A DNA stretch of 64,000 nucleotides from Macrocystis pyrifera (Eukaryota > Sar > Phaeophyceae > Laminariales > Laminariaceae). Shown in pieces: positions 3,001 through 60,450 of the stretch (positions are counted from its first letter, which is position 1; each line of letters begins with the position of its first letter). Below the pieces are notes generated by a model, which had not been told where the DNA came from, did not search any database, and saw nothing but the letters and a program-made list of their open reading frames with translations. The DNA is taken from positions 4,499,862 through 4,563,861 of the forward strand of contig JASSKH010000029.1 of NCBI GenBank assembly GCA_031763025.1, read 5' to 3'. Both the position numbers and the translations under genes were made by a program.

Positions 3001-5500
3001 CTTCACTGATCGTCTTCGTCTTTATTCTCTGTCTGTACGCATCCACGGGTAGGAATCCTTAGCCGCATCGTCTTGTTTGCTGCTAGCTCGACGTAGGCGC
3101 CCAGTACAACCTGTGTCATACGAAATAACGCTGTACACCAAACGGTACGTCAAGAGAATACCGGGTACCGCAAGATACTATCAGTGTATTTTGCGGCGTC
3201 GTAGTGACGGCCTCCTACAACTTTGTTTCGTACCCCCCGTGGCCGTGCCATATTTTTACCCTGCCAAAGGTACTTCTCCCGTTTGCCTAGCAGGCGGCCG
3301 TATCTCTTGGTGCTGCACGCACCAGGCACTATAGTAGTAGTTACCGTGTATTGTTTGGTCAAGTTGCTCACCAGCGAACGGCACCACCCGCGCAGATGCG
3401 GCATGTTCCCGCGGTTTGTGTAGAATTATACGTACGATATCTCGGGTAACTGTCTGTATCTCCATACCAGGTAATCGTATCCTCTGCCGGTACAGCAGTA
3501 CAGTACTACAGTAAATGCGTATACGTTACATGATTGATCGCTCTCGGCTTTTGGACCGCCTACCGCAATATCTCTTGCTTTCGCGGTGGATCTTAGCGCT
3601 CCCGTCTCGCCATCAGGCCGAATCGACGCTGTAGCGAGTTGGTGCGAATCGCCACCTTGCCCGGTATGCGCTGCTCAGTGCGCACGCACGCAGCAGGGGC
3701 TGGCTTGTTGATGTCTTCCCCCCGCTTGTTTCCGGAACGCTCTGCAGCGACACATATTATAGGTGCATAGCAGGGCAGGCATAAAAAAATGCCCAACAGT
3801 CCAGTTCGATTGTTTACGATTCGAATTCTTGTTTGTATAACTTTGTGACGCACCGCGTTCTGAGATCGTTTCGGTGCCTCACCGGTACTTGCCGGCGCAG
3901 GTGCCTGCCTGCCTGCGCTTACCTACTACGTGACCATGCACGCAATCGCATAGATAGTTCGATCGCACAAACAAAGCATGACGATGACGATGGTGGACTC
4001 CTGTAGTGTACGTACCAATACTACAAATAGTCAGTGTATACCCACAACACACAGCAGCTGGTGCAGTAGAAAATAATACCTACGGCAGCAGCAAGCAAAT
4101 GAATGTAAAGTCATATAGATCACACAAACAACCCACGCCTGAATACGTCTCATCGAAGGTACCCGACACACAATCCAACACCACGATGCAATGCCTATTG
4201 CTGTTCTGAAGAGTAACATACTTTCCGTAGCTAGTATTAATAGTGCACTCGTGGTACAAGCAGTGCAGCAGCAGTACATACATGCAAGCGTATAGACCCG
4301 CAGCGCGTCCATACCTCTGGTGATAGACCATGCGCGCCCGATGCCCTTAGAACACTACAGTAGCAAGATATTGCCGCTGTGTGCAGAGATGTCCGGCGGA
4401 CCTCTTTCGAGTCACTGTTCACGCTCCGCAGTGACTGCCGTGTTGGCATGCAGCAGTCAGTTATTAATAGTGTGCTCATACATACCACTCTTTACTTTTT
4501 CTGTACGAGTAGGGATACTAACAAAACGCGAAATAATAAGAACAGAAGAATACGAAGGCGGGCCTGCTGTGACAATGCGGGATACGCTGGGATGTCCTGA
4601 TCTCTTTATTATTCGCGCTCTTTGTCTTCTCGAGGGGCGCGCACTACGCACTACCAGGTACTATTAATACGTGTGCAGATATTCAAAATACAAGCACCGC
4701 ACGATGGTACAGCAGTTGTATGCGCATTCACTACTGCAGTGTAGTACGTAATTTTTTACGACCTCTGGTACTATTTATTTTTGTACTGTGTGTTGCTCGC
4801 CATCATCGTATAGTCACTCACCCAGTACCGGCAGCGCAATACGGCGGGTACATCACAGCAGCAAGCAGCAGCAGCAACAGCAGTAGTAGTCGACAGATAC
4901 AGCCAGCCTGGACCAGGATCTATTTATTTCGAATTTAGTGGACTGGAATGAATGTCTGTGTGGGAGAGCCTCGACGCCTACAGAGTACGTGCAGCAGTAG
5001 TAGGCAGAAGGCAACTTGAGGGTCCAGAAAACGTTTCATCGAAGTGTGGAACCACACCTCGTCTACACATCAAAAACGGAGCAAGAAGCTGTCACGCCGT
5101 GACGAAAGATCATAAAAAGTAGACCGTCCGCAATCCGCACACAGGGGAAAAATGAATGAGCAGAGACAGGCCGGACATGGGGGATTCAGCGAGGGTGAGG
5201 GTCAGGTCACCCGTGCGCATCTGCCGTCCAGACGTCCAGCAGCAGCCGGTGTAACTCGTCTCCGACAGGGAGGAAACGAGGGCACGGGGGCGCTGCATAC
5301 ATACATACCTTATTTGCTTGTTCGTCGCATCATCCCCCACACAAAACAATACATACGAATACAACGCTCGATATTTTTTCGCAAAAATAATGAGATCAAC
5401 TTTTTAGTGTATAGTAGCACAGAGGTGTTCACTCGCACAGCAGCAGGAATAGCAGCAACAGCGCAGAGCTGCAGCAGTAGCAACAAAACAGAGTGTAGCT
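1..5500. other. Gene-free stretch, no supported gene
   Basis: I see no convincing coding region in this stretch. The open frames are short, overlap on both strands and show no recognisable domain. It contains three TATTAATA words (4235, 4462, 4662) and several TACCAGGTA words (2549, 2900, 3465, 4652), which are discussed as possible transposon scars. A CAG/CAA-like simple stretch lies near 4858-4895. It may be intergenic DNA upstream of the large + strand gene. Confidence 0.5.
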
Positions 5501-5996
5501 GATGCGCCGGGCAGACTTCGAACGTCGAGCAACATTGACATTTGATTTTTTCATCACATCATCACTACAATCATGAGGAATTGAAAACATTATTTCGAGA
5601 TACTGGACACATATCTTCGAGATCGGTCAAATCTCCCTACTTTTCCTCTGTCCCTCTTTTTTTATATATACAAATCATAGGCACGCAGCAATCTACCATC
5701 GATCATAAGTGTTTACATCTACCAGGTAGCAACCAACCAAGGCGCGGTCACGTTGATCGCGGGCTGGCCACAGGGGGGGGGGAAACCAGCTCAGCAACCG
5801 GAGGCAAACGCAACGTCCGAGATATCCTCCGGCCTCTGGCGGGACACGACGGACCCAAGGCGCTGTCACCGACGGCCGAGCGGAGACCGTTGAGATTCAG
5901 TCTTTTAGAGTTACTCTTGGGTGAGTCGTTCAAATTCTTGCGCGAGAACAAGCAAGACAAGAAGAGGCAAGAAACGCAGCGGGGTACCAACACAAA

Positions 5997-6006
5997 TATT
6001 ATATAG
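5997..6006 (+). promoter_or_regulatory. Possible TATA box upstream of exon 1
   Basis: A TATTATATAG sequence lies about 240 bases before the proposed start codon, in an otherwise GC-rich stretch. A transcription start near 6030 would fit normal TATA spacing. A donor-like GTGAGT at about 5920 could instead mean that a non-coding leader exon ends there. Neither can be decided without transcript data. Confidence 0.2.
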
Positions 6007-6238
6007 AGCGAACGGCCCCGTCCCGAGCGTCCGTCGGACACGGGAGGAGCCGGGGGTGGGAGGACTTCGGCCACGTGTTTTGAGTCACTTCCGCGTCGGT
6101 GGTGGTGTCAAGGTCGTCGTCGAGAAGGCAAGGGAAACGAAAACCTCAACACCACGCGCACGGCGCCCGGCCAGTGCGCGACGGAGCTAGGCTGGCTCTT
6201 CCGAGGAACATTGGAGATTGGAGGCACCCTCGCCTGAC

Positions 6239-6453
6239 ATGACGCCAACGCCAACCGATGTCGGTACCTATCGCAACACACACGCGGTGGGAGAAGAGGC
6301 GCGGGCGGCAGCGCCTCTCCCAATGAAAGGGAAGGGCCTCGAGCGCGACGACACGAGCAGCGTGAGCTCGCATGGCTGTGGCGGCGTTCCCTCTCGGCCT
6401 GGTTCCACGGAGCCTCCCCATCGCGGCCGACCACCGCCCATCACCACTTCTCT

Positions 6454-6494
<41 letters not shown>

Positions 6495-6623
6495 CGACCG
6501 GAGGAGGCGGGGGGCCTGGGAACATGCCAAGCGGAATCAGTGTGCAGGAGCTGAAGCAGATGACGGCACTCAGGATGGCCCATGAGCAGGCACACCTGCG
6601 CGCCAGCAGCCCCTTCGCGAGCG
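6239..6623 (+). CDS. Exon 1 (start, polyQ, first VQELK motif)
   Basis: The ATG at 6239 is the first in frame after a TAG at 6188. The exon encodes a basic, Pro/Ser-rich leader, a run of about 13 Gln from a pure CAG tract, then GISVQELKQMTALRMAHEQ near its end. It stops at a GTGAGT donor (6624) in phase 1, which matches the phase of the acceptor at 29624. The motif is complete within this exon, whereas the second copy in the gene is split by an intron. It could instead be the only or last exon of a separate short gene. Confidence 0.6.
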
Positions 6624-6919: not shown

Positions 6920-6960
<41 letters not shown>

Positions 6961-9900
6961 GGCTCGGCTGCTTCTGCTGCCACCAGCTGTGCGATCGTTG
7001 CCTTCCAGTTGGTTGCGCTCCGTATCCGACGTCATCCAGTAGACCCATGAGCCATGAAGGTCCCTACCACCTAGCACTGTTGTTGCTTAGGAGATACCAC
7101 GCACCCGTACTTCATAGCCGTCAGCTCTTCCTGGTCGCTCGTGCTGCAAGACCGATTGCTCCTTGGGATGAAGTAACAAGACGATCGCAAAATGCAACTC
7201 GGTAGGAGTACGAGTATGTACGAGCTACGTGTAGTGTCGTCCTACCGCTGTATTAGTAGTACTGGTACGTGATAAGAGCCGGTGTATGTACGTCGTATGC
7301 CAGGTATGCAACAGCGTGTCGTGCCGACTGGTCCCATTCGAGTTGCGAGTTGCGAGGAGTGGTTCTCGCGTTTACAGAGGCGTGCTTGTTTACGTGCGTG
7401 TGCTTGAGAAACCATGCCGTGCCTGCCTTCCTTTGCTGGCTCGACATGGACAGTACCACGATGGGCCTTCCTTTGCCCGACAAGGACAACGTCACGGCTC
7501 CTGCGCTAAACATTATACTGGTCATGTACTGGTGTGGTCTATATGTAGCAGCAGGAGCAGCATTAGCGTTGGCACGATACACCCAGATACACCAACCCTT
7601 TTAGAACTGCCGTCCCGTTTCGGGGGCAAACCACACTAATCCTAAGTAAATTTTACCCAGAACGGGACTGCAGCCCTAAATGGATTGTAGTCACGCCTTC
7701 TGTCGACCGCGACAGCAGTCGCTCGGTATTTTATTGCCGGCCTCGGGCCGTCTTCGTTGATGGCACGACAGAGTCATTCGTTGATCGCACACACAGCAGT
7801 CAACCGCCACTTCGCGCCGTCGCTCCTGGATGATAGCACGCACTCTGTCCGTGTATGTAAGATGCGTGTAGTCTTGATATTTGTACGCAAAACAGTTATT
7901 ACATTTCCGTTCAATGTTGTATGATACCATCAAAAAGAGCAAGATCGTTGTGTTGCGAGGCCCCTACCCCGGGCTTCCTCCATTTATCTAGTGCTGGTGT
8001 TTCTTACCAGAGGTACCTCGGTTCGAAAATTGGCACGGCTGTTCGCGGGACACGATCCGACCCGCGGGTCGAGTCAGGAAGTATTCAAAATATCACTTGT
8101 CGGGTCGGGTGATGAGGTTTTCAAATGTCGCGGGTCGGGTCAGGTCGAGTCAAGATTTTTTCGAATCTCACGGGTTGGGTTTGTCGGGTCATGAGTTTTT
8201 CAAATCCCACGGGTCGGGTCGGGTCGGGTCGGTTCAAGAAGTGATGGAAAGCGCACTAGTAGGGGCAGCATCACCCGCGAGTTTTTTTCATGCTAATCCG
8301 CCGGTTGGACCCGCGCATCCGACCCGCGGATCCGATGCTTCAAAGTATTTTTTTTCCCGCTTCTGCCCAAAAGCTCTTCTTTCGTACCAACACTTGAATG
8401 ATGTTCATTTGCCCTCATATTCATATCTTGTACGCATTAATAGCACCGCTACATCTATACACACGCATGTCTCCATTAATCCATTTCCATTACAGCCAGG
8501 CCACATAAAAGTGCGGAGTACGAATGTGGAGATAAAATGGTTTCCGAAGCGTCGACCCACCGTCGGATCCGCGGGTCGATCCCGCGGGTCGAGATAAATG
8601 GTCTCGATGATTTAGGTGACCAAATCCGCGCCATGCCTCATGTCTCACGTGTCAATCAATCGGAGCCTGGCGTGTCGGGTCGGGTCGGGTCAGGAGGTGT
8701 TCAAAGTCTTACGGGTCAGGTCGGGTCGGGTCGGGTCTAAAGGTTTTTGAATCTCGCGGGCTGGGTCGGGTCGGTTCATGATGTGGTTAAATCTCACGGG
8801 TCGGGTCGGGTTGGGTGAAGAGGCTTCCATTGTGGGGCGGGTCAGTTCGGATGAGGTGACCCGACACGACCCGAGCTGACCCATGAGGTTTGAACTGACC
8901 CGCGAACAGCCCTGAAACTGAGTTTCATACAGTCGGAAATCCGGAAACCAATGTAGTTGTCGTTTTATCAAATTGTCAGTTTTTTTTTTTCCCCGTTTAA
9001 ATTTCGGTCAAGTCTCCCCTAAGGTTGCCTTTTGCCCTCTCCTTTCTGGTATATAGATATACATCGCTGATCGAACCTCCTTTTTACTTTCTTTTACCAG
9101 GTACCTGCCTGATATACGCACGCCACTCGTGCCTTGGCAGAAGTTATTTACCTCGGGACTACGAAATACACGTGACATGCTATCGAATTTGTTAAGAAAA
9201 AAAACACTACGTACGGGCCCTGGCTTTGCTTAATGCATTTCTATATTTCTATGATATTCTTGTATTAATAGTAAAATGTCGCTGGGCGCTGGGGACTGGG
9301 GAGGAGGACGACTCAGCGTGGAACGGTTCGATATGAAGACAACAGCGAACAGCACCAAAACGGCAACACAAATACAATAACCCAACAACAAGAACAGCGA
9401 ACAGCGAGCCACATCAGCAACAAGTATTTGCAACAGACAGCAGTACATACCAATGCTGATACCGCTCAACATGTACAATCCCAATGCTTCTTATCCCCCC
9501 CCCCCCCCCCCCCCCCCCTATTATATATTATATATGGTTGGGTTGGCGTCGGTTGGCAACGACCTGTAAAACATGCCGCTCACTACGTGAGCTAGACATG
9601 CAGGGTACCGCTTTTTTTTTTTTTTTTTTTTTTTTTTCGGCGGTCGCCCACAGCTGGTTGTCGAGTTAGATCATTTGTGCGAGGTAAAGAACCTTTACTC
9701 TGCACAAGGGAATTGATCGTATCACGTAGTGTTCAAGGTAAGGCACCCAAGAGGCAGTTACATAGTACTACCATTGCTGTCTCTGGAAGTGGCTACACCG
9801 GAAATTTAACTAACTCATTGAAGCTGTCATCCCTATGCAAGTCTGCCTCACAAGCGGTTATTAGTAGGATCAGCTCACCCTTGATGCGACTCGCCGGACA

Positions 9901-12900
9901 CCTCACGGCGCTTCGCGCTTGGTGCAAGCAATGTCTGCCTAGTCGGTGAAAACCCGACATGCCCCGTCCCGGCATTGTAGGGATGCGAGGGTATATGGTC
10001 ATACGACTACGGCCATGCATGATAATGAGTACACCACCCCCCTGCAGTGCCTAGAATATGCAGGAGAAGCATGGGAAGGGAACGCGAAACTCGTAAAGCA
10101 GTTGGAAACAGGACAAATGACAGCAGCTAAAAAAATCCTAAGATGCTCAAGTACGACTATTAATAGTAATACAGCATTAAGAGCAGAACTGGGAATGCGC
10201 CCACTCAAGACAAATAGAGACATGAGAAAGTTGAACTGGCAATATAAAGTAGGGAACATGCCAAAAAAGAGGTTGCCAGCCATAGTTGACAGAGCTGTAT
10301 GGGAGAAAGTAACAAAAGGGCGAGCTGGAATAAGGTGGGATGGCGTAGTTGAGGAAGTATGGAAGGATCTAGGGGGAAACCAAGTAGAGATGATGTCCGC
10401 CGGGAAGTTTGGGAGGTACAAGGCAGAAGTAGAAGAAAGGATAGAAAGACGGGAAAGGCTAGCGCTATGAAACAAGGTGGAATCGGAAAAACACTTGGAG
10501 ATATACGGGGGATTGAGGGAAGGAATAGGAATGAAAACGTATTTGCATGGCCCAATGGACTTCGCGAAACAACGCTGAAACTGCGCTTTCGTGTAGGGGA
10601 CCTGGAGCTGCCAGAAAGAAGAAAGAGGTACACCAGTAGCCGGGAAGAGGAGGAAGTAGACGCACAGATGTGCCCGTGTGGCAAAGCAATAGAGTAGAAG
10701 GAGGAACGCGATGTGTTAGAAGAGGAGATGAGGAAAATAGACGAATGTGACATGGAGGACTTTGATACAATGAATAGCAGCGAGAAAACGATCGCTATCC
10801 TAGAAGATAGATGGTGGCCACAGGAGGCCAAAACAGGAAGGGGATAAGATTAGCAAAAAGTTTCTACGTAATTTATGGAAACAACGTAATGAGCGCCCAA
10901 TTGTTGGAGGTGTCTATTAGGAGTAGGAAGGGTGCTCCGTCTCGAAAGGGATGCGTGGTCAATGGTCAAATGACTGATGCAAGCAACAAACGAGTACGCT
11001 CCCCCCCCCCCCTGCAGTGCCCAGGCGAACGACCAGCAACGACGGCTGAACTGCTGCCGCTGCTGTGTTGCTGCTGCTGCTGCTGCTGCTTTTTTAGTGC
11101 TGCCGCGTTCGCGGAAACCACAACACATTAACACATTACGCCTAATCGTATTGCTCGTACCTGGTTCTGCTGAAAGCATTCCAGGTAGGTGATACTCACA
11201 CAGCGGTAGGGGTCCCTCTATAATGCCGGTTTTATAATGGCGATGCCCGATATCCGTACCGGCAAAATCGCGTGGCACAGATGGGATAAAATAAATCCAG
11301 TGTGGCAAGAGTGCGGAATAATCCCGGCGCCCGCTTTAATGCCGGTGTATTGGCCTGGCGCATACCGACACCATAGAGGGACTATTAATAACCACTCCTG
11401 CAGATATTGTATTCAAGATCACACGTTTTGACGATCTAGATATTCCGGGGCAGGTATGAACAGATAGATAGATCCCTGACGTGTGTATGATCTGCGCGAT
11501 CTGCTATTGGTACGAGTATTGCCTAATGCCTGGTAGGATCATGTCTGTCAGGTGAGATGGGTATGTTGCGGCGCTTGCGCACGCACAACGTGTGCCTGGG
11601 ATCCGTAACCTGCGTGTTTCGGCTCATTCACAACATCTCATGACGGCACTACAGAGAAAATTTGTGGAAGACTAAACCTTATCCGTCCCCAATCCCCGGG
11701 TTTCCGGGTAACTCTACGAACGGTATCGGCCAAGCCCGGTACCTTATACCAGATACTACTGCTGTCCCTGGATATAAAGACCGTTTTGATTGAGTGGTAC
11801 ACAACCTGTCCTTGCATTTAGGGACAGTGGTACCTGGTATAGTACTAGCGTCATTCCAGGTATCGTATGCAATATACGCACCAGGTGCCTGGCACGAAAC
11901 AACGCGTGTTGTAGGGTTAGACTATTACGGGAGACCATAGTAAATAGGACCTACGGTACACAAAAAAAACTATATATTTCCCTATTATTGCCTACAGTAT
12001 TTGGTCCTATTTAGTATGGTCCCCCGTACTAGTTTTTTAGATTGCTGGGAGAATCGTGCCACACCAGGGATTCGCGAAAAACACGAGTGAAATCCTACGC
12101 CTTCAGGATCACCGTCCCGTCTTGAGGGACACACTAGTCGGAGTTTTCGTGATTCGTTCCCAAAACGAGAGTGCAGCAGTCCTACTAAAAGGGATTCAAG
12201 TCTGAAATGCGCTCACTTTGGTGCGGACAAGCCCCTTAGACAAGCAAGCTCGTATGTACTTGGATTTTGTTTATTATTGATGGAGGAAGCGACTCATGAG
12301 GCATTGTTGCCTATCGGGTGGTACATCTGCCGTGCAACACGCAAGGTAAATCCCCCCCTCCCCACTTGGAGATGAATTTCCGAGCCCGTTGCAACAAAAC
12401 GAGGGGGGCACACTCAACGAAAAATATCGGGTTGGGAATGACCTCGTTGAGAGATTTCCTTTGTAGACGCATCGCTCGGCGTTTCTGCACTCTCGCCCTG
12501 CTGTTGAGAAAATCAGCCTATTATTAATACTAGAAGTTCGTCCCCTAGGGGGCGTGCTATCTTGAGTGATGCCTTTTCGGTCGGGAACTCCCTTCCCTCC
12601 TTCTTTCGTTCGTTCGTTCCTTCCTCGCTTCCTTTTTTACCTTCCTTTATTTCATCGTTGGTTTGTTTGTTGGTGGATTTGTTTGTTTCTTGCTTCCTTC
12701 CTTCCCTTCCTTCCGTTCTTCCTCTTTTTCCTTCCTGCTTTACTTTCTCTCCTTTTTTTCCCCCCCTCTTTTTTCTTCTTTTCACCGCCGTGCGCTCCGT
12801 TCGTCCTGCTTCTTAGTGTCAGCAGATATCGCCGTTTGTCACTCGAAAATTCTTTGCGTTCGGGCGGCACCAGTTCTGTGCCGGTTCCATTTTTGTTATC

Positions 12901-15900
12901 AATCAATACTGTACTTGGTGCTCATTTGGAGAGCCCGGCAGAGAGTTAGAACGGGAAATAGTCATGCACAACTTAGTATTGGCTGGTGTACGTAATACCC
13001 GGCACCTCTCTGTCCCGAAATATGGAGACGATTTCTATACTCACATCAAATAAAACGATCTTTGCAGTTAGGGACATATTGATACCACGGGGTCCATAGT
13101 TAATAGGACCTATGGTGTACATAAAAACCTCTATATTTACCTATTTTTACTAACAAAATTTGGTCCCGTTAACTATGGACCCCCGTAAATAGTGGTGTTC
13201 TACACCAGTGGCACGAAGTACGCCATACACTTTTGTTATAGAACTGTAGTCCCGCTCTGGGGACAAATCGGTCAAAAACCGAGCATTACGGGGGACCATA
13301 GTAGAGGGGACCATACATTGTTTGTAAAAATAGGGAGGTATGTAGGTTTTTGTGTGTACCGTGGGTGCTATTTACTATGGCCCTCCGTAATAGTGTATGT
13401 CGCCGAAACGGGACTGCAGTCCTAAATGGGTGAAGGTATTGGCCGGAAATGGTGTACGAGCTGGAGTTCAGACGCTTCGACCATGTCTTAACTGCTGTGG
13501 GATTTTGAAATCCGAAAAAGTGATGCGAGCCTCTGCTCTTTTACGTCACTTGGCGTACTTTTTTACCCAAAGTCCGAGCCGGCTTGAGGTCGCTCTCCTC
13601 ATGATTCTTGCGGCCCTTTGGCGAGGAGTGTCTAGACCCCGTTCTTCCTTTCTCCAAGCGCTTTTTTTCTGGTGGAAACCCTTTTGGGATCCAGGGAAAG
13701 CGATCAAGCGAAACGAGCTCTCTGGTGTTATCAAATGGTTTGTGTGAGGGAGCGGTGCAGCAGTGTAGACAAGCATTGATGTCGGCCCCATATAGGCCAA
13801 AAGGTCATTTCCAGGCATTTTCTTGGCTATGTATTATATTAATAGTTGATGACATTCTTACGGGTTGTTGTCAGTAGAGCAGTTTCATACGTAATGGTCG
13901 CAAAAATAGGGAACGTTCGGGATATATCCCCGCACGGATCGAAACGCGCATCCGGTGCCACGCCAATTGATGCACCCACCGGCTTGGCCAGCAGGGATGT
14001 CGATGAAAGGGCAGAAGCTTTCGCGCGCATCACCGTGCTTGGATTTTTTGGCGAGCCAAGTCGTCATCGCCTATGCCAAAGCAGGTCAGGTCGCAGGGCC
14101 ACAGCACAAACTCAAGGTTCGAACGTGAAACGGCCAGTGGAGCTTCCCGACCGGGGGGAGCTATTGCGGGGGTTTCGTACAGAAATGCATGGCTTTGGTT
14201 ACTGGCGCTACGTAGTTAGGGCGGCCTAGACCAGTTACTTGCCGCTTTGACACCTCGCCGTATTGCCGGGCTCCTCACGGGTCGGGTCGCATCGGGTCGG
14301 CCCAGGAGGGTTTTCAAACTTTCACGGATGGAGTCAGGTCACACTTTCCCGACCCGACCGAACCCGATCTGACCTGACCTGCGAAGTTTTACCCAACCCG
14401 TGAAATGCGTATTGCTGTAATCCGACGTCGTTGAGTGTAGGTATCAACCCGTTGGGAACCCAGCGAAAGGGATCGCAACAGCAGTGAGAGGCGCAGCTGA
14501 GGCGTGAGTAGTGTTCTATGATGAGCGCCTGTCGTACAGGTATTAATAGTTGGTGTTGGATATCGGATATCGGATATCGATTTCGATACGATAGCGCTAA
14601 ACACAAAAAAAAAAAAACGGTTGCACGTAGTCGATACGATCTCTAATGTATATATTATGGTACGTACGTAGGAGCTTTTGTTTACTTTGTATCTGCTTAT
14701 AGTGTCGGATGTCGGACATCGATTTCGCTACGATAGTGATGACCAAAAAAATCAATTGTACGTAGTCGATGCGATTTCCAATATCTGCGTGTGTTCTTCA
14801 AATTAAACTGTTCTTTCTACCCGTCGACATCCAGCACGATCAGTGTCCGTGCCGATTCTTCAATCCTATATAGAGATACTAGTTCTGTGGTCACGAAGCT
14901 ACGCCACGGAGATGATATGTGGTACGTGCTCTGGAGCTTTTGTTCAGTTCGTATCTGCATACAAGTCACTGGGCTGCCAGGGGGTGGAGAGCAAAGCACG
15001 TTCGAATACGACACATCTCGAAAAATCGATACGATATCCAACACTATTATAACAGCAGCCGTATATACAACTGAAGCACTTGTAGATGGTGTTTCGAGCG
15101 GTAAAGTTACCAACCTTTTCAAGTCTGTATAAGGCAGCAGCTGTTGATAGAGTCGCTTCGTCTTATGATGGATGCCGCGATCGTAGTTTCTTCTGCGCCA
15201 ATGTTCCGCTCTCAACCCCCACGAACGATGTCCAGCAGTTGACAATTATCCTGCTGTGCCCATGTGACAAAAGCTTGCTTCGAGGGTGGGTTTTCTGTCG
15301 GGGAGGTATCCCACTTTATCGCGGTTTGAATATCATATCCATTGATTCTGTTTATTTTTTTCCAACCGCCTTATCAACTATTATTATTAATAATAACATT
15401 ATTACCAGGTACCTGGAATATAGTGTGTCGCATGTTGTATACGATCGATCGTGTCATGTCAGGTGTGAACAAAGTTGTGATACTCCTTCTCTTTTTGGCG
15501 TTTCCTGATATTCTGATCACTTGGTCAACTTGATCAACTTGATCGCCTGGTCGCTTGGGTCGTTTGTGTCACTGCCTGCTGGTGCGGGTGCTGGTCCCAT
15601 TAACGACAGAACTACTGCTGCACGTGCGTACTCTCTTCACGCTTGACATCCTTTACGTATTGCTATTGTAGCACCGTGTCGGTATAATGGTGGTACTGGC
15701 ACATGCGTGTAGTCGCAGTGCTGGTGCCATGATCGCGTCGCAGGGTGCTACCGGGAGTCCCCGCCAATGGTGATGGTCCTGATATGTGCCAGGTATACTC
15801 ATGCTTTATCTTCGTCGTACGGAGTATCAGTAGGACTCGGTTTGCGGCCAATCACAGCGTCCCTCTCATGGACTCCCCCTTCCCCCCAAACGCCCCCCCT

Positions 15901-18900
15901 CCTCCCCGAGACATCTGTTGTCTTCGTCCCTCTCTCTGCCGCGATCACTCCTGTCGTGCAGAAGTATACGAATGTCGCCGTCCCCTCACCGGTGCGCATG
16001 CCAGGAATCATACAAGCCTGTGCGTTGCACAGCTGTAGTACATACACATACTGCTGTATCAGGTATCACACAGGGTGCGTACATGCTTCGAGTTTACAGC
16101 TTCATTATCGTTTCGGGGATACCGCTCTTGAAACAATGCTTGGGAGCACCTTGTGCACTACTGCTGTTGGTAGTCACAAGAGGCAATATTGTGTAATTTC
16201 CCCGTGCTTCTTGGTAATATGTACCACCCCGTTTATTTATCGGAATTGATGTCGAGACTGGGCATTCTTCGTCATTCTGGAGTGAGCGGTATAACTCACC
16301 AGATACCACTATGACTGTTGATGTATGCGCCGTTTTGATTCACCCTTGATGTATGAACGGTATGATATTTTGGGAACAGGGTGGTAACCTGTAACACAAC
16401 AAGAAAAAAACGCCGCCTGGGGTGATATGCCGAGCCGAGTGCGCCTCCAGACTAAGCGGGGACAGGATGCGTGCACACGGCGATAATGATGGATTTGGAG
16501 ATGTCTCGAAGAAAATCGTTCCATATTATAGGGGGCATCTATCTGTCGGCGTCTGCGCTTTCCCCGTCGCCCAATGAAATCCGCTTGGAAATTCGCCCGA
16601 AACGGCGTGTCGTCATCTCGCGCGTTTCACTCGTCCACGGACGGCGTGCATGTCCCACCACTATGTTGCGGAGTATCGGGATCGTTTAGACTAGATATCA
16701 ATGTGCAAACGATACTTACATCTTGGAACAGAGTGGTAATGCTCGCGTGTGCGACACGTTTAGGTACCCGCGGCGCCATCATCATCCTTCTTTTTTTTTT
16801 TTTTTTTTTTTTTTTTTTCTCGTCGCGTGTATGCACAGCCTTAACTTAAGTACCGCTTATGTACCTCTGTTCGCAGCAGCAGTGGTATTAATAGTATAGG
16901 TCACCAGGTGCCCCTTGTATGTTGACACGTCAGGTCTCCGCGGTGTTTTCCCTTTTGACTTCCGCTCTGTTCGAAAATTTAAGGACGGTTTCGTCTTCAG
17001 ATTAGCGTATAAACGCTCCCTTATGTTGTCACCCCCCCAGAGAGGACTATCTTTTGCCTTTTCCATTTTCGTTAAGGCGCTCCTGTGCGTTTAGACACTG
17101 CTGTATGTGTTCGAGGACGACTAATGGGAATTCGGTTTCTTGCGTGGCGCCTTTGTTTTTGTGCTGCCGAGCTACGAGATCGAACGTATTCTTACGTAGT
17201 TGTCGGGCATATTTACTTTCGAGCCGTCTTGTACTACAGCAGTATTAAGAGATGGTGAGATGCTTCGGGACGTGAGAGAGCGTTCGAAGAGACCTACCTG
17301 ATCACGAAAAAAGACCGATACGCAAGAGCTTTTTTTTTGTCTTGGTGATTTCTACATCCGCTCTTGAAGTTGGGTGCGAAACGCCTCCATGGCGCTCAAG
17401 CACCAATAATTGAAGTTTTACTCCTGCAATCGTGAATACATGCCTCTCGGTGACGTCGAAAGTCATTTCAAACCAACTCTCCGCTCGGGTGCAAGTCCTG
17501 CAGTGATGTGCGATAGTGTCTCGCTCGCCTGTTCGCGGCCCATGAGCGTTTCGCCTCTCTTCAGGTTATCGTAGTCTCAACACGGCCCGGCACGGGATGA
17601 GGCAATACGTAGATTGTAACGCCTTATCGACCCCGTGCGGGATGCTCTTGAACTAATGTACGCACTGCTGCTGTAGCTGCGTGCGGTAGTTTGCGGAGTC
17701 CTTGTGCCGTCGCATCTGACAGGCACGTTCGTGGCTTCGCGTGTGTGTTTAGCCCTAAAGATAGTGAGTCAGGGTGTTGGTCTGCTATTACGGGGGACCA
17801 TATTAAATAGGACCTACGGTACGCACAGAAACCTATACATTTCCCTATTTTTACTGGCAATATTTGGTCCTATTAACTATGCCCCCCCCCCCCCATAATA
17901 ATCAGGGTGTTGGCCTACTTTTAGCGTCACCCAAGTACTGACAGTTCCTTTAGTGCTCCCACTACGATGCTGGTGTGCCCCTACAAACAGTACTGGCACT
18001 ATATAGAGCCCTAGCCCCAACCCAGAGCCTAGCGGCAATCGGCACGACTCCCTCCGCACGCTGCCACATTGGTTAATCCCACCAGAAGTGCCGAGCGATC
18101 GATCTCACCGGCAATGTATCGGGCAGCCGGCACTGCTCAACCCGGCGATATAGAGGGACCTCGCTGTAGTATAATTTTTTGCGTACGGGCGAGGAAAAGT
18201 GTTGTGCTGTGATTGTATAGTAGCTTTGGCTTTTACCCCCACCCGACTGCGGCAGTATTATTACGGGGGGCATAGTAAATAGGACCAAATATTGTTGGTG
18301 AAAATAGGGAAATATATAGGCTTTCGTGTGTACCGTAGGTCCTATTTACTACGGCCCCCCGTAAAGGTAGTTTCTTCGGTTTGCCGCCACCGAGCTACGG
18401 AGTGGTAGCTAGCCGTGAAATTCGACCAATTCACTCACCGCTCTGTGGCAGTACACTGAAGCATTGTGGTGTGATGTACTGCTTCCCCCTTCCTCTCTGA
18501 AAAAACCGAGGCTGAAAAGGAAACGTCGTATATGTGTGTGTACGAGGACAGGCTTTGTTCTGTTTCGTTTTTGTTTTATTGGCTCACCGGTTTTACTCGC
18601 GGGCTCAACTCCGTTAGTTTTTTTTTTTTTCTTTTTTTCTTGTCCGTTGTCACCCTTCTGGATAGGCCGTGCTCAATGGTGTAGTCCCCCCCCCCCCTCC
18701 CCCTGTAAATACATCCGTACGTACCTGGTATGTTAATTAATAATACGGCGCAGAGGGCTCAACGTTCCCCCTGCTCGTCTATTTTATTTACATCGGTTTT
18801 TGCTCGACGCGCACGATCGGCGACTTGCGTATGGATATTTAGATATGTATCATTCTCCATTAATATTTCAGGTACACACCCTGGTATATTTCTTAATCAT

Positions 18901-18977
18901 GCCATTTGGTCGCGCTCGCCCTCTTTTTCTCTCTCCTTCCATCACTCGTGAGTCAGACCCGGGTCACACAAGCTGGC

Positions 18978-19026: not shown

Positions 19027-20302
19027 ACCTCCTCTCCGCAGCTGTTCGTGCCTTGCATTATTTTTCCCAAGAAGACTTCAACCCTTGTGCCATCACCGCG
19101 TCTAGCCGCGCCTTTGCCGGCAGACGCTGTCGGCAGTCGATTCCGTTTTATTTGTACGTTTTCTGCAGATAATTTTCACAGTCTCGCCGACTCCAGGACC
19201 AACGCTTTTACGGGGGGGCCATAGTAAACAGGACCTACAGTACACACAAAAAACTACTTATTCACCTATTTTTGCTAACAATATTTGGTCCTGTTTACTA
19301 TGGTCCCCCGTTATGGCAGCATTCGAGGGCAACCCTTTATGACTGCTGTGCCGTGTTGGGGACAAAACCACTCAGCATTTTGAGCGGTTTTTTTCTCTCC
19401 GAAACGGGACTGTCTTGCACGAAAAAGGTTATAATAGGCCACCGGGGCGAGATACATTTCTAGGAGGATGATACTCAGAAATATGTCCTGTGCACGCGAG
19501 AGGCGAGATACATTTCTAGGATGATGATACTCAGAAACATGTCCTGCGCACGCGCAGCGGTGAACCGCACCGGCCGAGATTCGAACTCCAGCGCAACGGC
19601 CAGCGAGGATGCTGCTGGCCCACGCGTGAGTCGATGTATGACCGCATGTGATGTCGTCTCAAGGTAGCCGTACTCTGTGCGCGGTGTGCTTGGTTGTTGT
19701 CACCAGCCTGGGCTATCGTTGCTGTTGTTCTCCCATGTACACAGTGTGTTTTGTACGGAAGTATCCAACCATTTTTTCGAAAAAAATGTGGGAAAAAACC
19801 GTCTCGGCTCTTGAGATCGAATTTTTCCTCAAAACTCATTTATATGATACTTGATACAGGAGTACAGCAGCACCAGGTACAGCAGTGGATACAACTATCA
19901 ATATGAACAAGAGAATTGTACGGTTAAGAGAGGCCAAATCCGCTGGACCCGCCTATACTTTCAAAGCGATATACTTCCCCATTGTGCTGGATAGGAGAGA
20001 AGGCTATAATAGTTTGCTATAATAGTTTGAAGAGAGGTGTTTTCGGCCGGTACCGCACCTCTCTTACGTCGGGGTGTATGTACCCACTGCTTGCTGTGCT
20101 GTTTTTTTGACGGAGAGGCACGCTAGAGTGTCCTCCCTGTCCGTCAGTGGTATCCTTGCGGCTGTCGCTTTTTTTTGTTCAGTGTGTCGTTACTGATGTT
20201 GTGTTGTTTGTTTTGCGGTGTTGGTTGATGTTGTAATTGCGTTGTTGTGTTGTTAGCATTGCGTATTTTTGTGGCGCTTTCTTGGCGGAAACCCAGACAT
20301 GT

Positions 20303-23300: not shown

Positions 23301-26300
23301 TGCAGAAGGGCGAAGCTGAACAGGGCGCCGTTTGTATCACCGAGGTGTCCCCGGTGGCTTGGTAGGTGGTCCGCGTGCCTATGAAGATCAATTTCGTGGG
23401 TCCGAGTCTCACCGATTGCATGCTCGTAGGGACTCTTTCTTGCATAAAAAAAATGGTTGGCGGAAAGCGCGAGAGCGTGAGTCAGCTACATTCGATGAAA
23501 GTCGACGGGCAGTGCGAACGCTGAACCCTATTCGCGACCAAAATAATTAAGGCACGTACCGGGGGCAGAAGGGACGGACTTGTCCAGAAGATCGCCGGGG
23601 GTAAAACCTCCTACGAGTTAGGCTTGAAAGTAGTGCTGATGAAATTAAAAAATCACATCATACATGTCTATTTATTTCAGTCTCAATTCCAATTTTTCGG
23701 CAAAAAAGAAGTGGCATTATACTATTGCGCCTTGAATGTATACGTGCAAGTATCATACATCCACACACTCTGTGCTCTGTAGCCAAGAATATCTCTTGTC
23801 TTCGCGCTTTTCTTTCTTTTTTTTTTTCCATCCTCTTTCTTCAGTCTTTTTGGATGTTAGTTCATGATATCGGTGAGGTGTATGATGTACGATGCCTGTC
23901 CCCCTTGAACATGGCACCTTTTGAGTAGACGTCTCTGATAACCTACACACCGCCTAAAACGTGCGGTCGAATGATCACATACATCAAGCTGGCAAGATGA
24001 GGTTCGAGGAATTTTTCGATCTCTCCCAGCTTTGTCTTTATTCCTTTTTTTCTTGAAACAACTCTTTCCTTTTTATGTTGCTGCGTAGAAATACACCGTT
24101 TTACTGCAATTCAGTTCAGATGAAAAGGTTGTCTGTCCAAACAAAGAGACCCATAACTATTGTATATGTTGAATGTACAATATATGGTTATTGTCGAATA
24201 GTCCTATTAATAGGGTACGCTCGTATGAAAAACATGAGCATGCTGTGCTATCTAAAGTCGAGAGGAAAACTTGCCAGAAAAGGAATAGAAACCAAAGAAA
24301 TAAGAGCCATTCATACGACCTACTGCTGCTGTCGTAGTAACAGCAAATTGTACGAATGTCGGCGGTGTCTACGCTCGGGCGCTTGTCGCCTGGCTCGATT
24401 ATACTGATGTACATCTACGGGTCAGATGGACCCGAGAGATGGGGCAAACGGGAAAGTTTTGAATCAAATCAAGAAGCGTTGCAGGACAACGGAGATCGCT
24501 ACTATTACGGGGGACCATCGTAAACGGGACCAAATTTTGTTGTAAAAATAAGGCAATATGTAGGTTTATTGTGTGTACCGTAGGTGCTATTTACTATTAA
24601 TATGGTCCTCCGTAATATTAATAATAGAAAGTAACCGAGTACGAGGGCACGGCCGAACTCATGCCACGAACAGGATGAATGTTCAGAAACCGAACACTTG
24701 GTGAATTTCACCGATCATGAAGATTTTATTGTATCAGATCATAAAGCAAAACCGTACACTAAGTATCCATACGAAGACTACGGCGGTAACAATAACAATA
24801 GAATGCTCTTCACGTATATATAGCACACCAGATATTTACCAGGGTACGTACGTATACAGCAGTCACTGGTACCCCCGCCACTGGTGTAGTATCTACTATC
24901 CGCAGCAGCAGTCGTACACTGACCATAAACCCAAAACTATTCGTGAACCATTTCTAGATAGTACATCACTCGTGAAGCTATCGAACAGGACACCTACGCA
25001 GAAAGACGGTAGTAGCGTGGGCGACGCAGCAAGTATGCCCGGACGGGCCCTACGCCAGCCACGTACCGGTCACGGCCAGACGACGCACGCCCACACGACT
25101 GCTGTGATTACCAGTCACTACGGGTGACCATATCGACAGTGAAAGGACCCATCGTACGTACGAAAACCTATATATTAGGGCATTTTTACTTACTGCTGTG
25201 GGCATGTATGGTGCTGATTTTTGTATGTCTCCCCGCAATGGTCTTGTTGTCCTCTGTGTCGGGAGAGAGACGGGAGGCTATGTACCAACCCCGCCCTCCG
25301 CTACGAAACGAGCGCAGGCAGCTTTTGATGGTAAAGCAGTGGTGGTCTCTCTGCAAAGCCGAACGGTTGAGTGTACCGGCTCCGGCTGGCCCGCCGCGTG
25401 TGGTGCCTGTGAAAACGCTCTGGCACAGATGGGACTAAACTGTGTGGCAGTGTGCGGAGTAGGTGACTGTACTGCTGTATTACGGGGGTACATAGTTAAT
25501 ATTACCTATGGTGTACATAAAAGGCTATATATTTACCTATTTTTACTAACAAAATTTGGTCCCTTTAACTATGGTCCCCCGTAATAGTCGGCTGGCGCAT
25601 ACCGGCACTATATATAGCGGTGATCGGCACTACCGCTTCTACTTGGCAGGTCTGCATGCTATTCGTAATTGGCATATTGTACGGGTGAGCAGACCTCGGT
25701 TGTCGTGTGTACCAATCCTCTGGGCGTGCGTACATATAATGACCGACTGGTGTTCTCATTAGTGTCTGAACGATCCTTATATTTCCGTCCCAGAGCGATA
25801 TGTTGCTGTACCCTGATTATTTATACATTGGTTCGTGATACTTTGTCTGTGGTAACGTGTATCACACGGGTGATTGAGAAAACAACTCCCTCCGGGATAA
25901 ATTCTTGGGCCGTTTTTTACCCGAAACAAGAACAAGCGCACACATCTAGAGCTGGCGACGTTGCCCAAGGTACGGTCGGGATGTTTACATACACTGACGC
26001 GACGCCCGGCGTTTGTTTCTCGCTCTCCCCGTTGCCAAGAACAATCCAGGCCTCTGGAAATTCGTCCGTGGGGTGGGGTGTCTTATCTTGCGTGCTATAA
26101 TTTGCACCTTCAGGCACGTATGGTGTGGTATGGTACGTGTGATGAGACGTATACTCGTACGAGGGAAACGCTTATGCCTGCTGCGAAAAAGGACCCTTGT
26201 CTAATTCCAAGTCGTTTTATGCCCGAAATGCGGGTGCAGGTTCTAGGGGAGTAACGCACATTTATTGTACGTAGGGATGTGAATTGCCTGACTAAAGGTA

Positions 26301-44423: not shown

Positions 44424-44540
<117 letters not shown>

Positions 44541-53690: not shown

Positions 53691-53699
53691 AACCGACAC

Positions 53700-55082: not shown

Positions 55083-56910
55083 CACACTGGACAGATCAGA
55101 TCCCTATTCGAGGATCTAGATCCTTTTGGATAAATAGATGCTTGATCTGTGTGATCTGCGGGATCTAGATGTTGTTATGCGGTCGGAATCTGCACGATCT
55201 AGCCATTGCACGCATATTAGCCTGGATGGCATCTGCATGATCTATATTTCGTTCATGTTTACCTACTGTAGTAGGTGGGATCTGTATGATCTGCGGGATC
55301 TAGATCGTATTTCATTGATAGGATCTGCATGATCTAGGTATTTCAAGCATCATTGCCTGAAATCTGTATGATCTAGATCTTTCACACATGTTCGCCTGGG
55401 TGGGAGCTGAATGATCTAAATAGTTATCACATGTTTACCTGGGTGGGATCTGTACGGTCTGCGGCATCTGCTATGTGCCCGTGGGTGATGGTCACATATC
55501 AGTACATACCTGGTAAACGTAAAACATACGTTCGGAAACACTGGTATCATACAATCAGAACTTAAACTGTTCGTGTTCATCGACATTTACGCATATGACA
55601 TCCAGAGAGGTGGCTTGCGGATCAAGCTCCTATGCACACACTGCCCAGCTTCACAAGCACACCATCACACGTAGATCTGCAGCATGGCAGGCGTCGGTGG
55701 CAGCAGCTCTTCTAGTGGATTTGCGAATGATCTCGGCAGCGCGCAGCAAGCAGGTTCCTCTGCGGATCCTGGATTCGAGATGATCGAGTTGCTGGAGGAT
55801 GCGGATGGTAGCGGCGAGGAAGGATCTGTACGATCTAGCTCTTACATACACGTTTGCTTGGGTGTGACCTGTTTGATCTAGATGTTTCGCATATGTCTGC
55901 CTACTGTATGTAGGTGGGATTTGTATTATCTACATGTTTCACACATCTTCGTCTGAGTGGGATCTGTAAGTCTTAGATATTTCACACCTTTGCCGAGTTG
56001 GGTTCACCACTTTGTAGATATTGATAATATTCCAGGAATATTCCTATTCTCTCTCCGTACCTGGTATATGGATGTACGTACAGGTACTGCAGCGACAATA
56101 CTTAAAAAAAAAACGTGGAGGGGGTGGGGGGGTGGAAAGTGATATAGCTCCACGGTCTATAATAGTGCCCAGCACCATATCTCTTCAATTTCCTGGTTTG
56201 CGACGCTTTTTTTTCATTTTTTGTTGCATCCGACGTTTGTGACCGTTTACGGTTCGAGCTTCGCGCTCACGGCCTCCACGGCTCCAGCGGAGCGTTAATT
56301 GTATTTCTGCACCTTTTGGGTGAGAGCAGGGTGCCAAATGGGATCACACCCGGCTGGGATCAGGTCCAGGTGGGATCAGGAGAATCAAGCAGGGGCCTGT
56401 TTTGTTTCCCACTTTGCATGGAAAATATTCCCAGAAACTTTGTTCTCTGCAACATGAGAAACTCTCCTGTTTTTGCCTTGGTGGGATCTGTATGATATGC
56501 GAGATCTAGAGCATATTTCACCGATGGGATGGATCTGTGTGATCTGCGGGATCTAGATATTCTTTTACTGATGGGTTTAATATGATCTAGATATCACGCA
56601 AACGTTTGCCTGGATGGGATCTGTACGATCTATTAATAGATGTTTGATACACATGCATGTTTGCCTGGGTGGGATCTGAATGATCCAGACCTTTCACATA
56701 ATGTGTGTGTGGTATGACCGGCTGATACATGTTTCGCGGGGTAGATCTTGTATGAATCTTTATGATTCGCACATCTTTCCATCTGTATGGTCTGCATATG
56801 GTATGCATTATCATCTGCACCATGTCATGTTTCGCCGTAGAATCTGTATGATCTAGAACTTATTATGCACAGCTTTCCGTATCGATTCAGATGATCTACT
56901 ACGGCTGTAG
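55083..56910. repeat. Degenerate GATCTGTATGATCTAGAT satellite
   Basis: Units of roughly 50-65 bp recur at 55083-55470, 55795-55990 and 56470-56910. Their core is GGGATCTGTATGATCTAGAT followed by TTTCACACATGTTTGCCTGG-like text. Spacing is irregular, so it is an old, decayed satellite. The 155-base frame at 55684 is not supported as a gene. One unit carries a TATTAATA scar at 56631. Confidence 0.7.
56631..56638. repeat. TATTAATA scar inside satellite unit
   Basis: Other units read GATCTAGATGTTT (for example near 55876). This unit reads GATCTATTAATAGATGTTT, six bases longer, with TA turned into TA-TTAA-TA. Confidence 0.75.
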
Positions 56911-57652
56911 ATCATGATCCGTCTGAGATGCGGAAGTTTCGTATGTACGTACTCGTAGGAGCTCTTGGCAATTGCAAGTCGCCATTTTGCATCTAAATTC
57001 GTGGGTGTCTCTGTCCGCTTCGCTCCTTATTCCCCCCCCCCCTCGTGAGCGAGCATAGCCGGCGGCGGAAGCCGCCCGCGGAGCGAAGCGCCTTATATAT
57101 ACATACATGGATCTCAACACCCCCATGCAAGAAATCCACGAGTTATATCATGATTTTCTGTACAGTACGAGTAGCAGCCTTCGACTACACAGCCGTGACA
57201 CACAACCCGCTGACGCCACACGTCATACCTGTCAGCGCCCTTCCTTCGTATGGTGCTCACCGCAGCTTCCTCCTTTTACTGAACCCTGGCTGATGAGAGG
57301 TCCGCGGTGTTTTTTTTTTTCGCGCCTTCACCATTCACTTCGCCGAGCACATTTTGTCCAACGAGATCAGATATTTTCTGGAGCAAAAACCATGATCGGC
57401 GGGCGAGCACGATCAAAAGAGTCAGCACTACTACTAGTAGAAGGGGCGATTCAGCTGTGAAGTGAAAACAGAACGAGCAACAACGGTCGGTGGGCGAGAG
57501 CGTCATCAGCGGGAGGGGTGGATGCAGCTCTGCGCCGTGTATAGAAATACCAAACAACCAGGTATCGGGCCGGAGGAGTCGGAGTGGTCGTCACTCGGAT
57601 CCTGGGATCGATGGCTGCACAGCAGCCACAAAAATGAAGAAAAAAGAAACTA

Positions 57653-57757
57653 TTACGGGGGTCCATAGTTAACGGGACCAAATATTGTTAGTAAAAATAG
57701 GGATATATATAGGTTTTTGTGTATACCATAGGTCCTGTTAACTATGGACTCCCGTAA
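57653..57757. mobile_element. MITE-1 copy
   Basis: TTACGGGGGTCCATAGTTAA to ACTATGGACTCCCGTAA, 105 bp, TA on both flanks, inverse orientation relative to the 25480 copy. Confidence 0.9.
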
Positions 57758-60450
57758 TAGGAGCTGATACGGACGCAACACCCCAAGGCCGTCCGACAGG
57801 TGATTACGCCGTTGCAGCCCTATGCCCTCCGCTGCTGCTCTATGCTACCAGGTATACTATAACATGCGCTCACAACTCGCACCCACAGCAAAGAAGGTCT
57901 CACTCTCAATCTCGGAACAATCTCTTCATGCCGGTGTTTGTGAAATACTGCAGCGGGTATGGGTACGCGGTACCAACATGCGAGGTTGATATCCACTACT
58001 TCATGTACTCTGCATAAATTTCCATCCCTCGTACGTATAGCTCTACCGGTAGCACACGGCCTCTGCTGCGCTGTAGCGCTCTACAGAGCTTTGCGCACGT
58101 TTACCAGGAGGATTGGTGCGCGGCCGCTTGGATGAGAAGAGAAGATGCGAATCTCGAATCTACTCAACCGAATCGGGATCAGGGGTTGCTGGAACTCAAT
58201 CCCCTGACGTAGATAAGCGATAAAATTCTATATAAAATGGACGGAGACAAATGTGGAGATTCGACATCCCAACAGTGAGTTCGAGGTGGAATGCCCTCTC
58301 TTTTCACTCGGCATGCTGACGCGATGGGGCTCGTGCGTAGACCTTCTGCGTGGAAGCCTTTCTTGGCCTGGTGTGGTCATCTTGTGGACGGTGAGACGAC
58401 ATACCGCTCTGGACAAATCCTTCTGCGTTCTTTCTGTTGTATTTTCGTACGAGTACGAGTACTGCTGTCCGAAACACGATCGAAGTCGGCTACGTTGACG
58501 TCGCGCGAAGCACGCCGCTCGAGAGCAGGCGGCGCCTCGGCCACAGGTAGACTCTCGTCGGATGTATACGCTCATGTTTGCGTTCTAACGTAGGTGTGGC
58601 AGTACCCTCACATGGCATTTTTAAAATGGTACAGTATGGTCATTGATTTCGTGGAACGAGTACGTGCGTCTATTCCTGGTATGGCAATGGATCCGTATGT
58701 ACTGCTGTATTAATAGTATCAACCTACTTGTTCGTTTCAGACGAGTACGTCCTACGCGCCAAGCAGGTTGTAGGTACTCTGTCCAGGCAGGCTTGATGTT
58801 GCGACGTCACTACAGTCGTGCCTCACAACAGGCCGGACGAAACCTGGCTCGAAGGTGCCGCGTTGAAAAGTCTGTAACACATGATCGCCCCTTTCTACGG
58901 ATCGGGTGAGATGCGTGGCGCCACGGGTACTCGTACAGCGTACGGGTATTCATTACTCGTACGATGTACCGGTACTTTTTGGCACGATATATACCGGGTA
59001 TATCATACCCCGCCCCACCCTCCACCTGCCTGCGGTACCGGTGTTGCATGAAATGTCTTGTACGTGGTAATGGGTGTCTTCTCGTAATTTTTTACGCCCG
59101 AATCCCATCGTCGTATTCTACATACCCTTCTATATGTTTTTTGCTATCTCCCATTAGACTATATACTTAAATACTCGGGGTACCGAGCGTACGTTTCGTG
59201 CTCCGAGTACTGACAGGATTGCAGGACTAGACTGGCGGCCTGAGTAATGCGAGTACTGCGAGTATCAACAGTGCTGAAGGCCCAAATACTGCGATGACTG
59301 CGAGTATGAGCAGTACTGAAGGCCCAAATACTGCGAGTACAGAACTCCGAGTACAAACATTAACCGCAGTAAAAATTCGGAATATTTGACGTAATCAGAC
59401 TATCAACAGTATGAAACCCGTAAAATACTGCTGAGTACCCCAGTTGCCCCCCCCCGAACGTAATTTGCTCCAACTCCCACTCCTGGGACCATCGGTGAAT
59501 GCGTTCTGCATTATAATGGGGGTGGAATTATCGAAACGGCGCACAGATGGATTAATATGCTTCTTACTCCGAGTATACTGCGCACATCGAGGGTATTTTG
59601 GTACTCTGAGTGCTCACAGTACCAACGGGCGGAGTACTGCCAGGACTTTTCGGCAATACCCAAACTGTAGTATCGAACCCTTAAATACTTCCAAGTACAG
59701 CAGTACTTCACAACAGTATTGCACCCCGAAATACTGCGAGCATGGTATCATTAGTATCCGCAGTACATCGAGAATCCTTATTGGCAATACATCTCCCCTT
59801 CATAAAAATATAGAGTATAAAACGATCCTGGAGACAACGTAAGCAACGCGAATGATACTCGCTCGATTGCGACACAACACGGTTATACATATAAACCCTC
59901 CTATGTGTTCTTGGCATCCTGATACATATACAGCAGCACCCCAGGCAGGCACGGTACATGTTCACACCAGCTATGATGCGTAGTGTTGGATATCCTATCG
60001 AAAGTGCCACTTCGATACCTGGTGTATCGCACCGAACGCGCTTTACCTTCTATCCCCCGGCACCCCTGTGCGTTTAATCCTGATTCTGAATGAACGCTCA
60101 GCAAGGAGATAAGCAAAGACCTTGGCAAAATTTGTTTTGTCCGGTTTTTTTTATTACGATACCTACCTACTGTATGTACAATATGATCAGTGACGTCAAT
60201 AGCAATAGCTCTTTTTAAGCTACGATGTGTGTCATCGCCAAAAAAGGAAACATGGAGCACAAATCGTTGAATAGTCGCTGAAAACAGCATCTATGCCGCA
60301 CGTAACAGCAGTACTCGTCCTATCACTGCTGTACAACAACAGCAGTAGTAGCGATAAAACGTCAACATAAGAAAAATGCGTACCCGGTCCCAAGTACGGC
60401 GTGGTAGCGAAAAAAATACACGTGGAATGTTACAAGAAGGCGTTGAATTA
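57758..60450. other. No supported gene; minisatellite at 59255
   Basis: Short frames only. Contains TACTGCTGTATTAATA at 58700, a MITE-3 end (GTGTTGGATATCC) near 59983 and the 42-bp tandem repeat at 59255. Confidence 0.45.
59255..59338 (+). repeat. 42-bp tandem repeat
   Basis: Two units starting ACTGCGAGTATCAACAGTGC and ACTGCGAGTATGAGCAGTAC, each ending GGCCCAAATACTGCGA. The surrounding 59170-59760 is rich in degenerate GAGTACTGCGAGTA phrases. Confidence 0.7.

Follow-up and report, generated by a model that had tools for sequence, protein, structure and literature searches.

Departures of DNA transposons are usually hidden in genomes, because precise repair, gene conversion, and ragged deletions erase them. 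Tc1 of Caenorhabditis elegans targets TA and leaves a short terminal sequence after excision, typically one 2-base overhang in the form of TACATA or TATGTA, and the footprint of Sleeping Beauty is TAC(A/T)GTA. Sleeping Beauty and mariner elements insert at TA and are cut three bases inside the end, and the resulting 3-base 3' overhangs give rise to the footprint (PMC7827188). Excision of the plant mariner-like Stowaway miniature inverted-repeat transposable elements (MITEs) and of Osmar is reported to keep the TA duplication together with a few terminal bases, with end-joining repair in yeast assays (PMC4561436, PMC1925063). A genome-scale account of excision, Mariner elements included, comes from Asian and African rice; there, only 8 perfect excisions, with exactly two copies of the target-site duplication remaining, were counted among 94, and the rest carried deletions or filler (PMC4423477). 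Among the brown algae, Ectocarpus holds the abundant non-autonomous Mariner-Tc1 elements TcMar-N1_Ec32 (PMC12477816). Here we analysed a stretch of 64,000 nucleotides of the giant kelp Macrocystis pyrifera (contig JASSKH010000029.1, positions 4,499,862 to 4,563,861; hereafter the window), which contains many copies of the 8-base palindrome TATTAATA and of a short inverted-repeat element, MITE-1. Our results indicated that TATTAATA is very probably the excision scar of MITE-1, presumably cut out by a Tc1/mariner-like transposase supplied in trans.

MITE-1 is a non-autonomous inverted repeat of about 105 bp without coding capacity, with ends reading TTACGGGGG and the terminal inverted repeat TTACGGGGG(A/T)CCATAGT. 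A search with the element ends recovered 36 copies from the sampled sequence; they were 81 to 92% identical to the consensus, and 27 of them had TA on both sides. Column conservation at the edges of the element fell from 88-97% at the TA to 30-69% outside it. Insertion of MITE-1 at TA, with duplication of the TA and a best target of TAC-TA-GTA, was the pattern established by sequence comparison, as was the scar, in which TTAA is left between the two retained TAs.

The excess of TATTAATA was evident at every scale. In the window, an exact word count gave 18 occurrences, the same 18 positions that an initial annotation had read by eye with none missed, and dinucleotide shuffles averaged 0.65 and never exceeded 4. 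It was the commonest 8-base palindrome there, the remaining fifteen A/T-only palindromes occurring 0 to 9 times each. In a 200-kb sample (20 loci of 10 kb from five contigs, L009-L028, six of the 20 on the contig of the window and none overlapping it; GC content 49.3%), 47 occurrences were found against 2.4 expected, and the only palindromes outnumbering it were the microsatellite words TATATATA (84) and ATATATAT (89); the excess over other A/T palindromes that had been anticipated thus held for the non-microsatellite ones. The window and this sample, 264 kb in all with loci L001-L008 and L029-L031 excluded, contained 65 occurrences; the later stretches L030 and L031 contained none and four. 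The giant kelp genome is described as 537 Mb in 35 scaffolds and 188 contigs (223 in the table), with a GC content of 50.37% (PMC10498591). Over the whole assembly (537,376,219 bases, 223 contigs), TATTAATA occurred 94,130 times against 7,522 for the one other word compared, the reversed palindrome ATAATTAT of the same composition. This difference of about 12-fold, an excess of about 87,000 occurrences, bore out the genome-wide count that had been proposed as a check. Words one mismatch from TATTAATA were also in excess (155 vs 55 expected), with the reservation that TAATAATA and TATTATTA, which are counted among them, may be microsatellite.

The derivation of TATTAATA from TA was seen in paralogous empty sites. 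The BLAST set of 285 kb also included L001-L008, which had been fetched for their TTACGGGGG, less L006, which overlaps L005; L029-L031 were no part of it. Among the 68 TATTAATA sites of this set, 11 were spanned by an alignment and the other 57 were uninformative. At 9 of the 11 a paralogue was exactly 6 bp shorter, and the short form read plain TA at eight of these nine and AA at one (L026_5204). In the controls, a 6-bp gap was found at only 2 of the 156 random positions that had a paralogue, and at 2 of 179 other TANNNNTA sites. The clearest cases were L028_1615, all three of its paralogues being short at 91 to 95% identity, and position 24595 of the window. The two remaining sites of the 11, L001_1758 and L002_1758, represented one recently duplicated site with the scar in both copies. 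The initial annotation had named orthologous sites at which TATTAATA is ancestral and never alternates with MITE-1 or TA as grounds for giving up the excision reading; tried on paralogues, the insert-free form was present in all nine informative cases.

Three sites of the window had been claimed to reveal the prior state, and our results agreed in each. The scar at 24595 lies inside a MITE-1 copy, and 22 of 27 alignments with other copies were 6 bp shorter there, 21 of them leaving TA and one leaving TG. At 56631, within a satellite-like unit, a plain TA stands in the sister units at 55321 and 55822 (GATCTAG), and the units at 55278, 56484, and 56672 differed at the site in other ways. The scar at 10158 lies in an open reading frame belonging to a many-copy protein family, where it adds the residues I-N; of the 446 homologues found, 120 were listed and 108 spanned the site, and 100 of these 108 had a two-residue gap at the scar. 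The prior state held at 10158 too, and the label "LINE" given to this reading frame received no support, since a Pfam scan of ten open reading frames of the window returned no family at E up to 0.01 and the frame at 10158 had no match.

In addition to the empty sites, the scars and MITE-1 shared a target preference. The bases T, A, and C at positions -3, -2, and -1 outside TATTAATA had frequencies of 0.51, 0.62, and 0.56, and the same positions outside the TA of MITE-1 had frequencies of 0.46, 0.61, and 0.55 (117 TTACGG[GAT] sites, of which 61 without a preceding TA were dropped). Flank profiles over ten positions, compared between 130 scar sides and the 57 TATTACGG termini used as MITE-1 sides, correlated with r = 0.92, while 500 random sets of TA sites gave a mean of 0.01, a standard deviation of 0.18, and a maximum of 0.51. 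The dinucleotide AC adjoined the site on 46 of 130 scar sides (35%) and 18 of 57 MITE-1 sides (32%), against 1,750 of 28,739 sides of all TA (6%; p = 4e-23 for scar sides vs all TA). Among 18 other word classes, AC was mostly found at 0 to 12%; the exceptions were TAC[AT]GTA (22.9%) and three classes one change from the scar (20.4, 22.7, and 26.7%), which we read as decayed scars. The flank profile of TAATA/TATTA gave r = 0.64, which is to be expected, this word being contained in both the scars and the MITE-1 junctions. The proposal that TATTAATA is the footprint of MITE-1 excision thus drew support from the genome-wide excess, the empty-site paralogues, and the flank match.

The product was also uniform. 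We enumerated 28 combinations of end remnants, each MITE-1 end contributing 0 to 6 bases and some combinations giving one and the same word; TTAA (65 vs 1.46 expected in 264 kb) was the sole strongly enriched product. The next by fold were TTAAA (9 vs 1.09) and TTATAA (1 vs 0.13), the other products that occurred lay at about 1 to 5 times expectation, and some of these minor words overlap scars or MITE-1 ends. The single-overhang words TATTTA and TAAATA had background flanks, with AC at 6.7%.

From these features we infer the type of the transposase and the geometry of its breaks. A Tc1/mariner-like transposase supplied in trans would make staggered breaks just inside MITE-1, and end joining would keep the overhang bases from both sides, converting TA-element-TA to TA-TTAA-TA and so leaving the site six bases longer than before the insertion. 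The geometry that we somewhat favour is that of Sleeping Beauty and mariner, with a 3-base stagger leaving TTA 3' overhangs, whose last two bases would pair as TA with TA, one base being filled on each side; such pairing would explain the dominance of TTAA. The 2-base stagger (TT) suggested in the initial annotation would give the same product if each side were filled and is possible but doubtful, and other break geometries are unlikely. MITE-1 showed the features that characterise Tc1/mariner-type MITEs, namely the TA target-site duplication, the short inverted-repeat structure, and a footprint in which the duplicated TA is kept along with a few bases of the element ends, and it is on the TA target and the footprint that its probable membership in the Tc1/mariner superfamily rests.

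Other superfamilies and groups were considered and rejected. Stowaway in the strict sense requires the terminal inverted repeat CTCCCTCCRT (PMC1925063), and MITE-1 ends in TTACGGGGG. For piggyBac and Kolobok, which target TTAA, the flanks of MITE-1 are TA, with TTAC inside the left end, and TTAA is absent from the site in the shorter paralogues. PIF/Harbinger Tourist elements make a 3-bp direct TWA duplication; the left flank of MITE-1 reads TTA and its right flank TAA, which is not a direct repeat, and the mostly precise excision of Tourist elements is contradicted by the scars retained here.

Several observations weigh against the excision reading. Motif scanning, which covered the sampled sequence, found no transposase. 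The numbers of scars and resident copies were only weakly correlated (rho 0.32, p 0.11) when 26 stretches of 10 kb were compared. The excess of one-mismatch words was not unique to TATTAATA, since neighbours of TAATATTA, probably microsatellite, numbered 166 against 51. Among the paralogues, the shorter ones of L026_5204 (8 of 17 alignments) read AA instead of TA, the match of L016_215 was weak (70% over 114 bp), and the short form of L012_7144 carried one further base change; the short form was only partial at L016_8996 (1 of 2), L017_2843 (3 of 5), L025_2056 (1 of 2), 24595 (22 of 27), and 56631 (2 of 3). An open scan for small indels (245 sites, 31 of them of 6 bp) yielded three cases of TTAA, no more than of CAG, a low number that we attribute to the few sites having close paralogues. 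Finally, MITE-1 could be taken to start at CGGGGG, in which case TATTAATA would resemble a target; the evidence from paralogues speaks against this boundary without deciding every resident copy.

Under that alternative boundary, an element CGGGGG...CCCCCG would enter the central TA of an existing TATTAATA. The resident junctions would then read alike (TAT-TA-CGGGGG...CCCCCG-TA-ATA) and cannot separate the two readings, and the flank match is expected under both. A pre-existing target, however, leaves unexplained the roughly 12-fold excess of TATTAATA over its reversed twin and the 6-bp-shorter paralogues of empty TATTAATA sites (9 of 11), and for the resident copy at L015:4106 in a satellite, one aligned unit of L014 (68% identity) had a plain TA; we consider this explanation very unlikely. 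It seems quite improbable that the scars stem from another family with ends starting in TT, MITE-1 being incidental. Such a family might be suspected from the autonomous partner not having been seen and from the further TA-flanked scar-like words TACC[AT]GGTA and TAC[AT]GTA, but 54 of the 57 TATTACGG termini in 264 kb belonged to MITE-1, so that a second family with such ends is not needed. When a longer element sharing the MITE-1 ends was sought in the sampled sequence, just three TATTACGG termini did not belong to MITE-1 copies, and the end of a locus truncated one of these. Moreover, in a scan for TA-flanked inverted repeats, TTAC (23 pairs) was the sole class starting in TT above five pairs, and the scars shared the target preference of MITE-1.

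Replication slippage of the MITE-1 hairpin, deleting the interior of the element, could in principle act on such an inverted repeat. It would be expected to produce varied breakpoints, whereas only TTAA was strongly enriched among the 28 combinations, and we give it scarcely any likelihood. The most improbable explanation gives TATTAATA a functional or compositional origin, for example as a binding site, a microsatellite, or a sequencing artefact. A few sites do lie in TTA-rich DNA, as at 15385, but the reversed palindrome was twelve times rarer, on which ground a microsatellite origin was set aside, and the paralogue-bearing sites were 6-bp insertions within unrelated repeats and a reading frame.

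With excision of MITE-1 as the preferred reading, arrivals and departures can be set side by side. A profile search found 50 MITE-1 copies in 264 kb, a ratio of scars to copies of 65 to 50. Genome-wide, TTACGGGGG occurred 82,183 times against 4,112 for the reversed word, and the 60 exact ends for 50 copies in 264 kb suggested a rough estimate of 65,000 copies. The claim that scars outnumber resident copies was upheld modestly, both by the ratio in 264 kb and by the excess of about 87,000 scars over the whole genome; the number of resident copies in the window had to be corrected from 11 to 12.

Each scar holds two TAs and can therefore be hit again. The words bearing on this re-use are TATTAATATTAATA and TATTAATATTACGG; in 264 kb, scar next to scar (TATTAATATTAATA) was found at two sites, and MITE-1 abutting a scar at two sites, one of them the copy at 24505-24615 of the window. 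If this is true, departures create new landing sites, and short TTAATA repeats can accumulate. Because a scar adds six bases, the reading frame is kept in coding sequence: two of the frames gain two codons, as at 10158, and the third gains a stop. The genome may even be a nearly complete ledger of departures, in which one MITE family has left some 87,000 six-base scars, all alike and outnumbering its present copies, with scar classes of other families alongside, a uniformity owed to clean joining of self-complementary TTA overhangs that pair through TA, and scars that build TTAATA repeats; we advance this broader picture tentatively, with slightly more doubt than trust. With TATTAATA read as the scar, tens of thousands of past MITE-1 departures stay legible in the giant kelp genome and can be located and counted by searching for one word; the ratio of insertion to excision, the accuracy with which ends are joined, and the re-use of scars for insertion could then be measured over evolutionary time.

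The TATTAATA sites of the window, to which no strand was assigned, were distributed as follows. Scars recognised by word count and flanks lie at 4462..4469, 9263..9270, 11383..11390, 12522..12529, 13837..13844, 14541..14548, 16886..16893, 24205..24212, 26717..26724, 28515..28522, and 58708..58715. The scar at 4235..4242 is followed by GT, as in the target preference of MITE-1, and that at 4662..4669 is preceded by AC. The three with a visible prior state occupy 10158..10165, 24595..24602, and 56631..56638; six diverged satellite-like units beginning GGATCTG were seen around the last of these, at 55278-56700. The occurrence at 15385..15392, in a TTA-rich stretch, is doubtful and may not be a scar. 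The one at 24616..24623 has as its first two bases the duplicated TA on the right of the MITE-1 copy at 24505..24615, element and scar forming one site, and this copy thus has one scar outside and another inside, at 24595.

The profile search placed MITE-1 copies on the forward strand at 13286..13390, 18261..18364, 24505..24615 (111 bp instead of 105, with its scar), and 57653..57757, and on the reverse strand at 11925..12029, 13089..13188 (the end at 13089 eroded), 17788..17898, 19208..19313, 25480..25584, 31830..31934 (with 92.3% identity the nearest to the consensus among the 36), and 60451..60555. A diverged relative lies on the reverse strand at 25120..25216 (E = 9.6e-5). A dispersed repeat family (window 13286-13390, L026:5204, L014:1155, and others) had one copy with MITE-1, another with TATTAATA, and further copies with neither, the positions being nearby and not identical.

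Other words and elements were observed as well. In 264 kb, TACC[AT]GGTA had 76 occurrences, 44 of the A form and 32 of the T form, where dinucleotide frequencies predict about 1.7, and it was also present in tandem CCTGGTA repeats. A second transposon family, with overhangs pairing around a central mismatch, may have left this word as its scar; a paralogue exactly 7 bp shorter was found at one of the nine sites with a paralogue (L027:8797). A 263-bp sequence at L024:691-953, flanked by TA and having perfect 20-bp inverted ends CCAGGTCCGG..., was rejected as the source of this word, being single-copy in the sampled sequence and probably a fold-back instead of an element family. TACTGTA at L017:9195, inside a MITE-1 copy, and TACAGTA at L021:5814, in a 92% identical duplicate, had paralogues with plain TA, and a further family may have left them as 5-bp scars of the Sleeping Beauty type; for most of the other TAC[AT]GTA sites that had a paralogue, the alignments shown gave no such plain-TA form. 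The palindromes GTACGTAC (13) and CATGCATG (8) were also common in the window, and GTACGTAC occurred 22 times in the 200-kb sample against 2.5 expected. A long reading frame at L010:1611-3185 contains a motif that we take to resemble a copia-type retroelement protease. Scanning the window for Rfam families (at the gathering threshold) and for tRNAs returned nothing.

Compared with the described systems, MITE-1 resembles Stowaway and Osmar in that the TA duplication and a few terminal bases of the element remain. The reported footprints of Osmar5 and the Triticeae elements, however, vary, with 1 to 4 bp of the ends retained (PMC1925063, PMC4561436), while in kelp one product prevails at tens of thousands of places. 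Unlike Sleeping Beauty, the kelp scar keeps four bases, perhaps because the TTA overhangs pair through TA, and the equivalents of the Tc1 product, TATTTA and TAAATA, stand in kelp in background flanks only. The account from rice is a comparison of two species, whereas a word search in kelp sees clean scars only, and the two ratios are not directly comparable. The TcMar MITEs of Ectocarpus are like MITE-1 in being abundant and non-autonomous in a brown alga, and the main text of that paper has no word beginning with "excision", "footprint", or "MITE" (PMC12477816). Titles and abstract openings screened in the literature yielded no genome-wide count of excision scars, which does not establish its absence from print. 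Footprints of the Tc1/mariner type are known; what is new in giant kelp is a uniform scar at such density.

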